Part shown: positions 8,445 through 47,523 of the stretch, piece by piece | Layout of the letters: every line of letters starts with the position of its first letter | How positions within the stretch are numbered: the first letter of the stretch is position 1 | Assembly (NCBI RefSeq): GCF_021389955.1 | Contig: NZ_CP089980.1 | Span: 2,413,001-2,477,000 of the forward strand | Direction: 5' to 3' | DNA length: 64,000 nt | Source of the DNA: Fulvivirga maritima | GTDB lineage: Bacteria > Bacteroidota > Bacteroidia > Cytophagales > Cyclobacteriaceae | Program-made: the position numbers and the translations under genes | Notes under the pieces: model-generated | Told to the model about the DNA's origin: nothing | The model's database searches: none | Seen by the model: only the letters and a program-made list of their open reading frames with translations

Positions 8445-8473
8445 AGGCCGGCTTTGTTTCCGGCCTTTTTTTT
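8445..8473 (+). terminator. intrinsic terminator of the TerB-like gene
   Basis: Arms AGGCCGG (8445-8451) and CCGGCCT (8460-8466) form a perfect 7-bp GC-rich stem with an 8-nt loop, followed by eight T's. It touches the stop codon of the convergent DUF892 gene. Confidence 0.9.
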
Positions 8474-8966
8474 ATGCTAATGCATGTTCATTTATTTTCT
8501 CTTCGGCCAGCTTAGTTAATTTTTCTGCGGCATCTTTTTCCTGTTCCAGGCTTTCCATTACTAAATCAGCTACTTCATCAGCATCCGCACATCTGGCATA
8601 ATGCAGGATGGCTCCGTAACCGGCTATTTCATAATGGGCCATTCTTTGGGCCTGAGCTATAAGTTTTGCATCTACTACATCAGCTTCAGCGCCTACTGTT
8701 ATAAAATCAGATAGTTCTTTAACAATTTCTGCTATGGCAGAGCAGATGTGGCCTTTAGGAGTAATGTCCAGTACCATGCATGCCTCTTCTAGTCTTCTTC
8801 TTTGTTCCTTGGTGTCTTTGAAATGTGCTTCTATTGTAGTTTTTAAACCTGAGTCAGTGGCCTTTTTTAGCATTATCGGCAGCACATCCAAAATTTGTGT
8901 TTCTGCACTGTAAAGATCTCTCAGCTCATGCTCTAAAAGATCCTGCAAGGTCTTTTTTTTACTCAT
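8472..8966 (-). CDS. DUF892 (YciE/YciF) ferritin-like stress protein
   Basis: A 164-residue four-helix protein of the DUF892/YciF family. It opens with L-L-E-H-E-L-R-D-L-Y-S-A-E-T-Q-I and continues with A-H-Y-E-I-A-G-Y-G near residue 110, the E/H pattern of a di-iron ferritin-like core. Members are induced by osmotic, oxidative or general stress; a biochemical activity is not established. The leader is notable. Thirteen bases, 16-28 nt before the ATG (8982-8994 on the opposite strand), are exactly complementary to the loop shared by the two putative sRNAs at 36.3 and 36.6 kb. A TAGGTTTG -7 box lies at 9021-9028, so the pairing site would be inside the mRNA. Confidence 0.88.
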   Translation of the reverse strand: MSKKKTLQDLLEHELRDLYSAETQILDVLPIMLKKATDSGLKTTIEAHFKDTKEQRRRLEEACMVLDITPKGHICSAIAEIVKELSDFITVGAEADVVDAKLIAQAQRMAHYEIAGYGAILHYARCADADEVADLVMESLEQEKDAAEKLTKLAEEKINEHALA

Positions 8967-8981
8967 GACTTATATTTTTTG

Positions 8982-8994
8982 TTTAGTTGGTTTT
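8982..8994 (-). promoter_or_regulatory. predicted sRNA pairing site in the DUF892 mRNA leader
   Basis: The mRNA reads AAAACCAACUAAA here, 16-28 nt upstream of the start codon. It is the exact 13-nt complement of UUUAGUUGGUUUU, found in the hairpin loops at 36302-36314 and 36584-36596, both transcribed from the other strand. Pairing would cover the A-rich leader in front of the start codon. This is inferred from sequence only. Confidence 0.5.
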
Positions 8995-9020
8995 CCTTTT
9001 AACATATGAGATTATAGTGC

Positions 9021-9028
9021 CAAACCTA
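9021..9028 (-). promoter_or_regulatory. -7 promoter element (TAGGTTTG) of the DUF892 gene
   Basis: TAGGTTTG on the minus strand fits TAnnTTTG and lies 55 bp before the DUF892 start. A 15-bp segment containing it (GCCAAACCTAAATCA, 9019-9033) recurs exactly at 63730-63744 in front of the SusC-like gene. No clear -33 element is visible. Confidence 0.45.
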
Positions 9029-9033
9029 AATCA

Positions 9034-36236: not shown

Positions 36237-36250
36237 TGGCACACCAGTTG
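36237..36250 (+). promoter_or_regulatory. sigma-54-type -24/-12 promoter, copy 1
   Basis: TGGCAC-N5-TTG at 36237-36250 matches the sigma-54 consensus TGGCACG-N4-TTGC, except T for C at the -12 dinucleotide. Transcription would start near 36262. The same box with identical spacing occurs at 36523-36536. Confidence 0.65.
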
Positions 36251-36261
36251 TTATCTCATTA

Positions 36262-36362
36262 TTAGGTTTAGGTTGATTAATAGAGCTGTATATTTTTCGT
36301 TTTTAGTTGGTTTTAATATACAGCTTAGAGCCGCCCTCTGGTAAAGGGCGGCTTTTTCTTTT
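36262..36362 (+). ncRNA. putative sigma-54-dependent small RNA, copy 1
   Basis: About 100 nt. The 5' segment TTAGGTTTAGGTT (36262-36274) is followed by a perfect 10-bp stem (AGCTGTATAT 36284-36293, ATATACAGCT 36316-36325) and an intrinsic terminator. The 22-nt loop holds TTTAGTTGGTTTT (36302-36314), also in the loop of copy 2 and exactly complementary to the DUF892 mRNA leader. It holds no ORF and precedes no gene on its strand. Homology between the two copies lies in the promoter, 5' segment, stem, loop and terminator and not in the spacers, which is what a structured RNA would leave. The boundaries are inferred. Confidence 0.65.
36329..36362 (+). terminator. intrinsic terminator of sRNA copy 1
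   Basis: AGCCGCCCT (36329-36337) pairs perfectly with AGGGCGGCT (36345-36353), loop of 7 nt, then TTTTTCTTTT. Confidence 0.93.
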
Positions 36363-36475
36363 ATTGATTAAATCTTGTAATATATTAAGTGCGTTTCAGA
36401 TGAGGGATATGAGAAATAATCATTTTTGGGTCGAAATCTCAAAATGAAACTACAAAACCTAAAATGGGAGAAAGT

Positions 36476-36522: not shown

Positions 36523-36536
36523 TGGCACACCAATTG
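36523..36536 (+). promoter_or_regulatory. sigma-54-type -24/-12 promoter, copy 2
   Basis: TGGCAC-N5-TTG again, with flanks TTGGCACACCA identical to copy 1. The start would be near 36548. The spacing between this box and the conserved 5' segment is 4 nt longer than in copy 1, while the internal box spacing is unchanged. Confidence 0.65.
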
Positions 36537-36547
36537 ACTTATAGTTA

Positions 36548-36650
36548 AACGTTAGGTTTAGGTTAAAATAAGCTGTAGTTGTATTTAGTTGGTTTTAAGA
36601 TTTACAGCTTATGAAGCCGCCTTTGTGGTTAGGGGCGGCTTTTCTTTTTT
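36548..36650 (+). ncRNA. putative sigma-54-dependent small RNA, copy 2
   Basis: About 103 nt with the same parts as copy 1: TTAGGTTTAGGTT (36552-36564), a perfect 10-bp stem (ATAAGCTGTA 36568-36577, TACAGCTTAT 36603-36612), a 25-nt loop with TTTAGTTGGTTTTAA (36584-36598), then a terminator. The stem bases differ from copy 1 outside the AGCTGTA/TACAGCT core, yet both stems are perfect, which is compensatory support for structure. The 3' end runs over the last codons of the convergent symporter gene. Confidence 0.65.
36614..36650 (+). terminator. intrinsic terminator of sRNA copy 2
   Basis: AAGCCGCC (36614-36621) pairs with GGCGGCTT (36634-36641), extended by a T-G wobble, then TTTCTTTTTT. It overlaps the 3' end of the convergent symporter gene. 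Confidence 0.9.
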
Positions 36651-45786: not shown

Positions 45787-45816
45787 CCAACCTATCCTAA
45801 ACTATAAACTTAAAGC

Positions 45817-47523
45817 ATGCAGACACTTAACGATTTTCTTGTTCTAATTGATAGCTACATAGGTAGTGCTTGGTGGTTTCCATACGCCTTATTAGGAACA
45901 GGACTTTTCTTCACTCTTTACCTTGGTTTTCCTCAAATTAGATATTTTGGCCACGCCCTTCGCATAGTTACCGGTAAGTATGACAAAGACGGTGATCAGG
46001 GAGATGCCACTCACTTTCAGGCATTAGCTACCGCACTTTCTGGTACAGTAGGTACGGGAAATATAGGAGGGGTAGCACTGGCTATTCACCTTGGCGGTCC
46101 CGGAGCTCTGTTTTGGATGCTCATCACAGCCTTCTTAGGTATGACCACCAAATTTGTAGAAGTAACACTTTCTCACAAATACCGAGAAAAGGATGAAACA
46201 GGCAGAATTGCTGGTGGACCTATGTATTATATGAAGAATGCAGAGTTTAAGATGTTCGGTAAGAAATTTCACTTAGGATGGCTCGGAGGTATATTCGCAT
46301 TCGCAACTATTCTTTCTTCTTTCGGTACAGGTAACTTACCTCAAATTAACCAGATAGCCAGTTCTATTTTTGCTTCTTTTGGATTAACACAATGGATCAC
46401 AGGAGCTGTGTTATCCGTGATTTTGGCTTTGGTAATATTGGGCGGTATTAAAAGGATTGTTAAGGTTACTGAAAAGTTAGTGCCTGGTATGGCTATACTA
46501 TATTTCTTAGGCGCATTAGCAGTTATATTCACTAACTATGAAAATATAGTGCCTTCATTTATCTCTATTTTTGAAGATGTACTTACCGGTTCTGCAGCTG
46601 CAGGAGGTTTCTTAGGGGCTAATTTTGCCTTTGCCTTTAACAGAGGTGTAAACAGAGGCCTTTTTTCTAATGAGGCTGGTCAGGGTTCTGCGCCTATTGC
46701 TCACGCCGCAGCCAAAGCGCATGAGCCTGTATCTGAAGGTATGGTAGCTATTTTAGAGCCATTTATTGATACTATTATTATCTGTACACTTACTGGTTTG
46801 GTGCTATTGTCTTCTGGCGCATGGAAAGATAAAGTTCACAATCAGTTTGAATATACAGAACTTGATATCCTCACCTCTAAGTTTGATGAAACTAAACCTG
46901 AAGATCGTAAGAAGCTTTATGACTACTTAGTGAATGATCAGGAAATGACTAAGTATACTGGTGATTTGGAGATTAAGGATGGTGAAATAATTAGTGATGT
47001 TACTTTAGTGCATTCACGTTCATTTGCTGACAATGTAGAGGTGCTTGGTGCTGATGGTCCTTACACTGGAGTATTGAAAGTAGAAGATGGAGATGTGATA
47101 GATCCGGACAGGTCTATAGCTTTCTGGGGAGAGTCGCTTGTACACAGTGCACCACTTACCGCGGAGGCCTTTAGAAGAAGCTTCTTAGGTAAATACGGAG
47201 AGTATATTGTAACCTTTGGGTTGCTCTTGTTTGCCTTCTCTACCGCTATTTCCTGGTCTTATTATGGAGATAGAGCTACTACCTTCTTATTCGGCAGTAA
47301 ATACATAGTAGTTTATAGAATATTGTATATAGTAGGGTTCTTCCTGGCGTCGTTTGCTGATACCACTATAATATGGACGCTCTCAGGTATTACCATCGCG
47401 CTCATGACATTACCTAACTTAATAGGAATATTGCTTTTGAGCAAAGAAATGAAAACTACGGTAAAAGAATACTGGGAGGACTTTAAAACAGGTTGGCCTG
47501 ATGATAAAGATTCTAAAAAATAA
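45817..47523 (+). CDS. AGCS-family sodium:amino-acid symporter with a large insertion
   Basis: A 568-residue relative of the Na+/alanine symporter. The AGCS motifs are [29 protein letters not shown] and the [15 protein letters not shown] loop. AGCS proteins are usually 440-490 residues. The extra length is one block of about 110 residues (about 337-446), hydrophilic and acidic, between two late helices. The insertion probably faces outside the membrane and has no fold I recognise. It cotransports Na+ with alanine, glycine or serine in the family. Confidence 0.9.

Follow-up and report, generated by a model that had tools for sequence, protein, structure and literature searches.

The stretch of DNA that we analysed (the window) comprises 64 kb of the 6.39-Mb genome of Fulvivirga maritima (G000 among the genomes compared). 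Its features of interest are a DUF892 gene and a pair of putative small RNA (sRNA) genes, flanked by genes for a rhodanese and an SSF symporter:

8472..8966, minus strand: DUF892 gene, 164 aa (PF05974, 1.6e-41), ATG at 8966; predicted target
8982..8994, minus strand: AAAACCAACUAAA at -28 to -16 of the DUF892 mRNA leader, fully complementary to the sRNA loop
36170..36184, plus strand: upstream dyad TTCCTAAAATGAGAC of sRNA copy 1, a putative activator site overlapping the end of the rhodanese gene
36237..36250, plus strand: sigma54-type -24/-12 element TGGCACACCAGTTG of sRNA copy 1 (motif)
36261..36359, plus strand: sRNA copy 1 (covariance model R1, 99.8 bits)
36302..36314, plus strand: loop of sRNA copy 1, UUUAGUUGGUUUU (predicted fold, alignment)
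36330..36357, plus strand: terminator hairpin and U tract of copy 1 (predicted fold)
36457..36472, plus strand: upstream dyad ACCTAAAATGGGAGAA of sRNA copy 2 (motif)
36523..36536, plus strand: sigma54-type -24/-12 element TGGCACACCAATTG of sRNA copy 2 (motif)
36551..36646, plus strand: sRNA copy 2 (covariance model R1, 78.3 bits)
36584..36596, plus strand: loop of sRNA copy 2, UUUAGUUGGUUUU (predicted fold, alignment)
36615..36645, plus strand: terminator hairpin and U tract of copy 2 (predicted fold)

An earlier note on this DNA had reported a 13-mer common to both sRNA loops and the DUF892 leader, 16–28 nt before the start codon, and we confirmed it: TTTAGTTGGTTTT is matched exactly at three places on the plus strand of the window, namely 8982-8994, 36302-36314 and 36584-36596. 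The DUF892 gene is read from the minus strand, starting from the ATG at 8966, and its mRNA therefore has AAAACCAACUAAA at -16 to -28. The accompanying claim that such a 13-mer is not expected by chance in 64 kb agrees with the absence of TTTAGTTGGTTTT from 100 of 100 shuffles (which, here and below, keep single-base composition only). In the whole genome it occurs six times against two for the backwards word and is therefore rare, not unique. These six are the two sRNA loops, the DUF892 leader, the leader of a subtilase gene (L005), an antisense position within a coding frame (L004) and L006 (minus strand, near 6001301 of contig G000:C1), where the 13-mer precedes a terminator-like hairpin; the covariance model described below does not match there, and the site may belong to a further RNA with the same seed. 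By predicted duplex with the loop, the DUF892 leader ranks second among 346 sampled leaders of its own genome, and 12 of 100 shuffled loops found an equally strong duplex somewhere in this sample. Taken alone, the DUF892 match does not reach genome-wide significance, and chance is not negligible for a single pairing. RNAcofold, applied to the whole sRNA and the DUF892 leader, left the loop site unused; we set this result aside because loop–loop pseudoknots cannot be formed by the program.

Both sRNA stretches fold more stably than their shuffles (z = -4.2 and -4.1), and each closes with a terminator hairpin. In the predicted folds the 13-mer occupies the apical part of a hairpin and forms few, weak internal pairs. 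Signals that would suit an independent transcript, a promoter-type motif and a terminator, are present at both genes, as read from sequence. No Rfam family was matched at gathering score anywhere in the window, and sub-threshold matches yielded names at chance level only. The symporter gene adjoins an sRNA cluster in all three other species read at this place (G014, G002 and G008; identified through Pfam in G002 and by a similar N-terminus in G014 and G008). A second cluster of the F. maritima genome lies one gene from rpoN, with a class II tRNA synthetase gene between, and an sRNA copy of G004 occupies the same rpoN-side place, as judged by protein starts.

A nucleotide search of 38 genomes, including F. 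maritima, gave matches in 11, that in G032 being short and outside the sRNA family. The covariance model R1, built from 34 sRNA copies, matched all 15 Fulvivirga genomes at E ≤ 0.01. Strong matches (E ≤ 1.7e-7) number 50 in 14 of the 15, with 1–6 per genome: 12 genomes hold 2–6 copies, G005 and G011 one each, and G010 none, its single weak copy standing without a promoter. The five strong copies of F. maritima are the two in the window and three near 2.60 Mb. When 291 genomes of the order were sampled, only the four Fulvivirga genomes among them gave matches at E ≤ 2.3e-9; outside the genus, 7 of 287 genomes gave weak matches (E 1.4e-4 to 7.4e-4), with a promoter-like motif in two, the loop core in one and both in none. 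L175 and L179, weak model matches in another family of the order, carry TGGCATCAGATTTGG and TTTTAATTGTTG before a terminator and are perhaps distant relatives. A pattern scan of contigs returned 44 stretches, 28 of them outside Fulvivirga and its relatives; we treat these 28 as chance because none matches the model at E ≤ 0.1. Copies share one anatomy: a 5′ element, mostly GGTTTAGGTTGA or GGTTAGGTTGA, the stem AGCTGTA/TACAGC, the loop and the terminator. GUUGG is present in 33 of the 34 aligned copies, and both-side changes are found in five of nine consensus pairs, four of these in the terminator.

Most sRNA copies that we read are preceded by a sigma54-type -24/-12 element (TGGCAY-N5-TTG) and an upstream dyad. 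Among 10 strong diverged copies, nine have the element and the tenth, L153, reads TGGTAT; one copy each of G007 and G008 has a variant form. The sets of 36 and 46 copies used to describe element and dyad are no measure of promoter frequency because both were picked with the promoter pattern. Among the 46 promoter-bearing copies, a TTCTC-N5-GGGAA-like dyad has its best match centred 58–62 nt upstream of TGGCAY in 35 and at 68–72 nt, about one helical turn further, in six. Its mean score (8.78) exceeds those of all 200 shuffles (maximum 8.09), although the consensus was drawn from the same sequences, and the dyad resembles a binding site for an activator common to the copies. RpoN is encoded in the F. 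maritima genome, where the sigma54-activator domain PF00158 has 13 strong matches. We infer that the sRNA genes are most likely transcribed by sigma54 RNA polymerase under one shared enhancer-binding activator. Hfq gave no match in 15 of 15 Fulvivirga genomes; of 14 control genomes, five were matched.

We then asked where the loop complement lies. In six Fulvivirga genomes, 62 of the 65 places of AACCAACTAAA outside sRNA genes were read by one fixed rule (three in G001 were omitted), with mechanical ORF starts taken as gene starts. At 31 of the 62 the word falls, in sense orientation, -1 to 18 nt before a frame-opening ATG; at none does it do so in antisense. The share of leader sites varies by genome (3/10 in G000, 7/12 in G004, 2/8 in G006, 6/12 in G008, 7/12 in G002 and 6/8 in G001). 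The composition-matched word AAACCACTAAA fell in leaders at only 2 of 50 places in the same genomes (Fisher p 2e-8; 50 of 55 places, five in G006 being omitted), the reversed word at 1 of 23 in G000, G004 and G006 (p 4e-5), and the outgroups gave 3 of 35 (p 2e-5 versus Fulvivirga; 35 of 102 places, in 15 of 23 genomes), all p values to be read in light of the related genomes not being independent. Excluding L093, which is a leader by the rule and overlaps an upstream frame, gives p = 4e-8. The possibility, raised in the earlier note, that the complement is common and randomly placed is thus answered for placement, which is not random. Raw counts of the 11-mer gave no clear excess in the genus (178 versus 157 for the reversed word in 15 genomes, sRNA genes included); the corresponding counts are 34 versus 106 in nine genomes of the family and 68 versus 181 in 14 of the order. 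The signal is the placement of the complement, not its genus-wide count. In bulk leaders, CCAACTAA occurs five times among 671 from Fulvivirga, none of the five in G004, against 0.9 for its permutations, and not at all among 245 from outgroups (0.35 expected).

Such a distribution could also arise if the CCAACUAAA leader element acted by itself on translation or mRNA stability in this genus, its complement being resembled by the loop for other reasons or the sRNAs merely modulating it. The offsets of the leader sites peak 10–12 nt before the ATG, a ribosome-proximal position that could suit a ribosome-linked element, and another leader word, TAAACCTA, clusters near -12 to -17 in leaders of G004. 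We nevertheless find this explanation unlikely: the composition-matched word, which has the same ACTAAA end, reached only the two leaders in 50 noted above, the DUF892 site is retained though its spacing to the ATG changes between species, and TAAACCTA is itself complementary to an sRNA part, the 5′ element of G000 and G004.

Duplex energies were calculated for the leaders of sampled genes, numbering 346, 319 and 279 in Fulvivirga and 301 in outgroups. In G000, G004 and G014, respectively, 0, 3 and 1 of 150 shuffled loops had at least as many leaders with a duplex of -11 kcal/mol or better as the loop itself, versus 16 of 150 in the outgroup G027. At -13 kcal/mol the loop count is unexceptional in G000 and G004 (reached by 12 and 33 of 150 shuffles) and stands out only in G014. 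The mean duplex energy of outgroup leaders is also below that of shuffled loops (14 of 150 as low), and part of the effect is therefore general leader composition. As for the 5′ element, TAAACCTA is the second strongest leader 8-mer (11 versus 1.25), behind one that we take to be the promoter box, and duplexes at -13 kcal/mol with the 5′ element of G000 and G004 are in excess in both these genomes (0 of 150 shuffles reach). The same element showed no -13 excess in leaders of G014 or G027 (34 of 150 shuffles each), nor did G014's own 5′ element in G014 leaders (38 of 150). L186 and L189 (G004:C1:6108153-6108216 and 6108619-6108682, minus strand) have promoter, 5′ element and terminator without the loop hairpin, as if in these short relatives the 5′ element acted alone. 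In the window, the leader of the ORF at 45816-47523 is predicted to pair fairly strongly with the sRNA 5′ element (-15.0 kcal/mol).

The DUF892 site itself was followed through 14 loci. Both close orthologs retain it, as AAACCAACTAA in G006 (78% identity) and AACCAACTAAAA in G004 (63% identity), with differing flanks and spacing to the ATG; the predicted loop duplexes of the F. maritima leader and these two are -15.3, -14.8 and -13.9 kcal/mol. Among nine scored distant leaders (25–46% identity; L041, cut at a contig end, and L050 were left unscored), seven are without a strong site; the other two belong to G002 and have duplexes of -12 kcal/mol or better. The conservation that the earlier note looked for in sRNA-bearing relatives therefore holds for close orthologs but not for most distant ones. 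The seven distant leaders, together with the 12 shuffled loops that found an equally strong partner, would suit a DUF892 match that is coincidental within a real sRNA family and regulon; we judge this improbable given the rank of the leader among the 346 sampled and the retention of the site in both close orthologs despite their changed surroundings. That the motif is instead the DNA-binding site of a transcription factor, as its presence both within sRNA genes and upstream of genes might suggest, is very improbable in view of the 31 sense versus 0 antisense leader sites and of a distance from the ATG that more likely places it inside the transcript than in a promoter.

Upstream of the DUF892 gene, TTTGGCACTATAATCTCAT (window ~9005-9030; also at L038 and L039) is kept in G006 and partly in G004; it may be a promoter and lacks the TTG that a sigma54 -12 box would have. 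The weaker, bulged site that the earlier note had proposed in the ahpC leader found no support, its duplex of -7.9 kcal/mol comparing with a sample mean of -5.8 for leaders of the genome. The neighbouring CMD-domain gene was rejected as a target (-5.8 kcal/mol, no notable site).

Taking together the sequence evidence, namely the family, its conserved loop, the promoter-like and dyad motifs, the site in close orthologs and the strand-specific concentration in leaders, we consider it likely that these are multi-copy, trans-acting sRNAs of Fulvivirga, probably sigma54-driven, whose loop pairs with mRNA leaders including that of DUF892. The pairing interpretation of the earlier note is thereby supported. 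Each RNA would consist of a single-stranded 5′ element, a hairpin and a terminator, the apical loop of the hairpin, strongly conserved and in most copies UUUAGUUGGUUUU, serving as the seed; a conserved loop complementary to sites in mRNA leaders, as expected of a trans-acting base-pairing sRNA, is present. Pairing of the loop is predicted at sites that are centred on CCAACU and lie shortly before start codons. Given that sites -1 to 18 nt before the ATG are covered by a starting ribosome, pairing would most simply block initiation, and we infer repression through blocked ribosome binding, without Hfq, as its most likely outcome; activation is possible.

The Qrr sRNAs of Vibrio occur in several copies, have sigma54-type promoters with upstream activator sites and pair with target mRNAs; five Qrr RNAs reportedly act post-transcriptionally. 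The Fulvivirga family resembles them (RF00378) in its several similar copies per genome, its sigma54-type promoter motifs with putative upstream activator sites and its predicted pairing with target mRNAs. It differs in phylum, in the lack of an Hfq match in its genomes and in a predicted seed that is a hairpin loop, and the Qrr covariance model gave a non-significant 22.6 bits (gathering 50, E 0.083). The models of GibS (RF04182) and rteR (RF04181), which we take to be Bacteroides sRNAs, likewise scored at chance level (25 versus 115 and 23 versus 72 bits gathering). To our knowledge, few sRNA regulons have been worked out in Bacteroidota. One sRNA of this phylum, Rfp18 of Flavobacterium psychrophilum, is similar by description in having a predicted pairing region, one stem-loop, that is common to several targets; the passages on Rfp18 mention neither sigma54 control nor tandem copies (PMC9723704). 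The Fulvivirga family offers a seed, copies, promoter type and candidate target list that are readable from sequence, so that loop-swap and copy-deletion tests in an environmental Fulvivirga strain become direct.

Candidate targets among the 31 leaders include SodC, an Ohr family peroxiredoxin, DUF892, YceI and DJ-1/PfpI proteins, as well as five pinensin lanthipeptide precursors, a subtilase, an AMP-binding enzyme, a MacB-type permease, along with several proteins that have no family assignment; a redoxin candidate (L057, G005) lies outside the 62 places read. Orthologous sites recur in G000 and G006 for SodC and the subtilase. Among 17 sodC-type loci in 11 genomes, four reach -13 kcal/mol (G000, G006, G011 and one of G014) and 13 do not, three leaders (L377, L378 and L383) having been assessed by eye only. 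The link to stress genes suggested in the earlier note is borne out in part, by SodC, Ohr, the redoxin and DUF892; at the sites read, however, lanthipeptide precursors and secreted or envelope proteins turn up no less often. Family score served to choose 30 pinensin-precursor loci out of 91 matches within the genus; of the 29 scored (L425 was not found), five have leaders at -13 kcal/mol or better, versus a mean of 0.09 for shuffled loops (0 of 300 reach). Two of these five are orthologs of each other and three are already among the 31.

More tentatively, the family might form a genus-wide hub in which near-redundant sRNAs, under sigma54 and one dedicated activator, use an Hfq-free loop seed on dozens of leaders and so couple the defence against peroxide and superoxide to the output of lanthipeptides and secreted proteins. 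Such a hub would have arisen in Bacteroidota independently of its Vibrio counterpart, Qrr, with the 5′ element as a second seed in one lineage.

In the literature searched, we found no publication that links pinensins with small RNAs. Upstream of one pinensin precursor, L408:1433-1468 is a DUF805b RNA (RF02914, 39.6 bits), and GAAAAGC...GAGTAGG-like stretches precede several other pinensin precursors.
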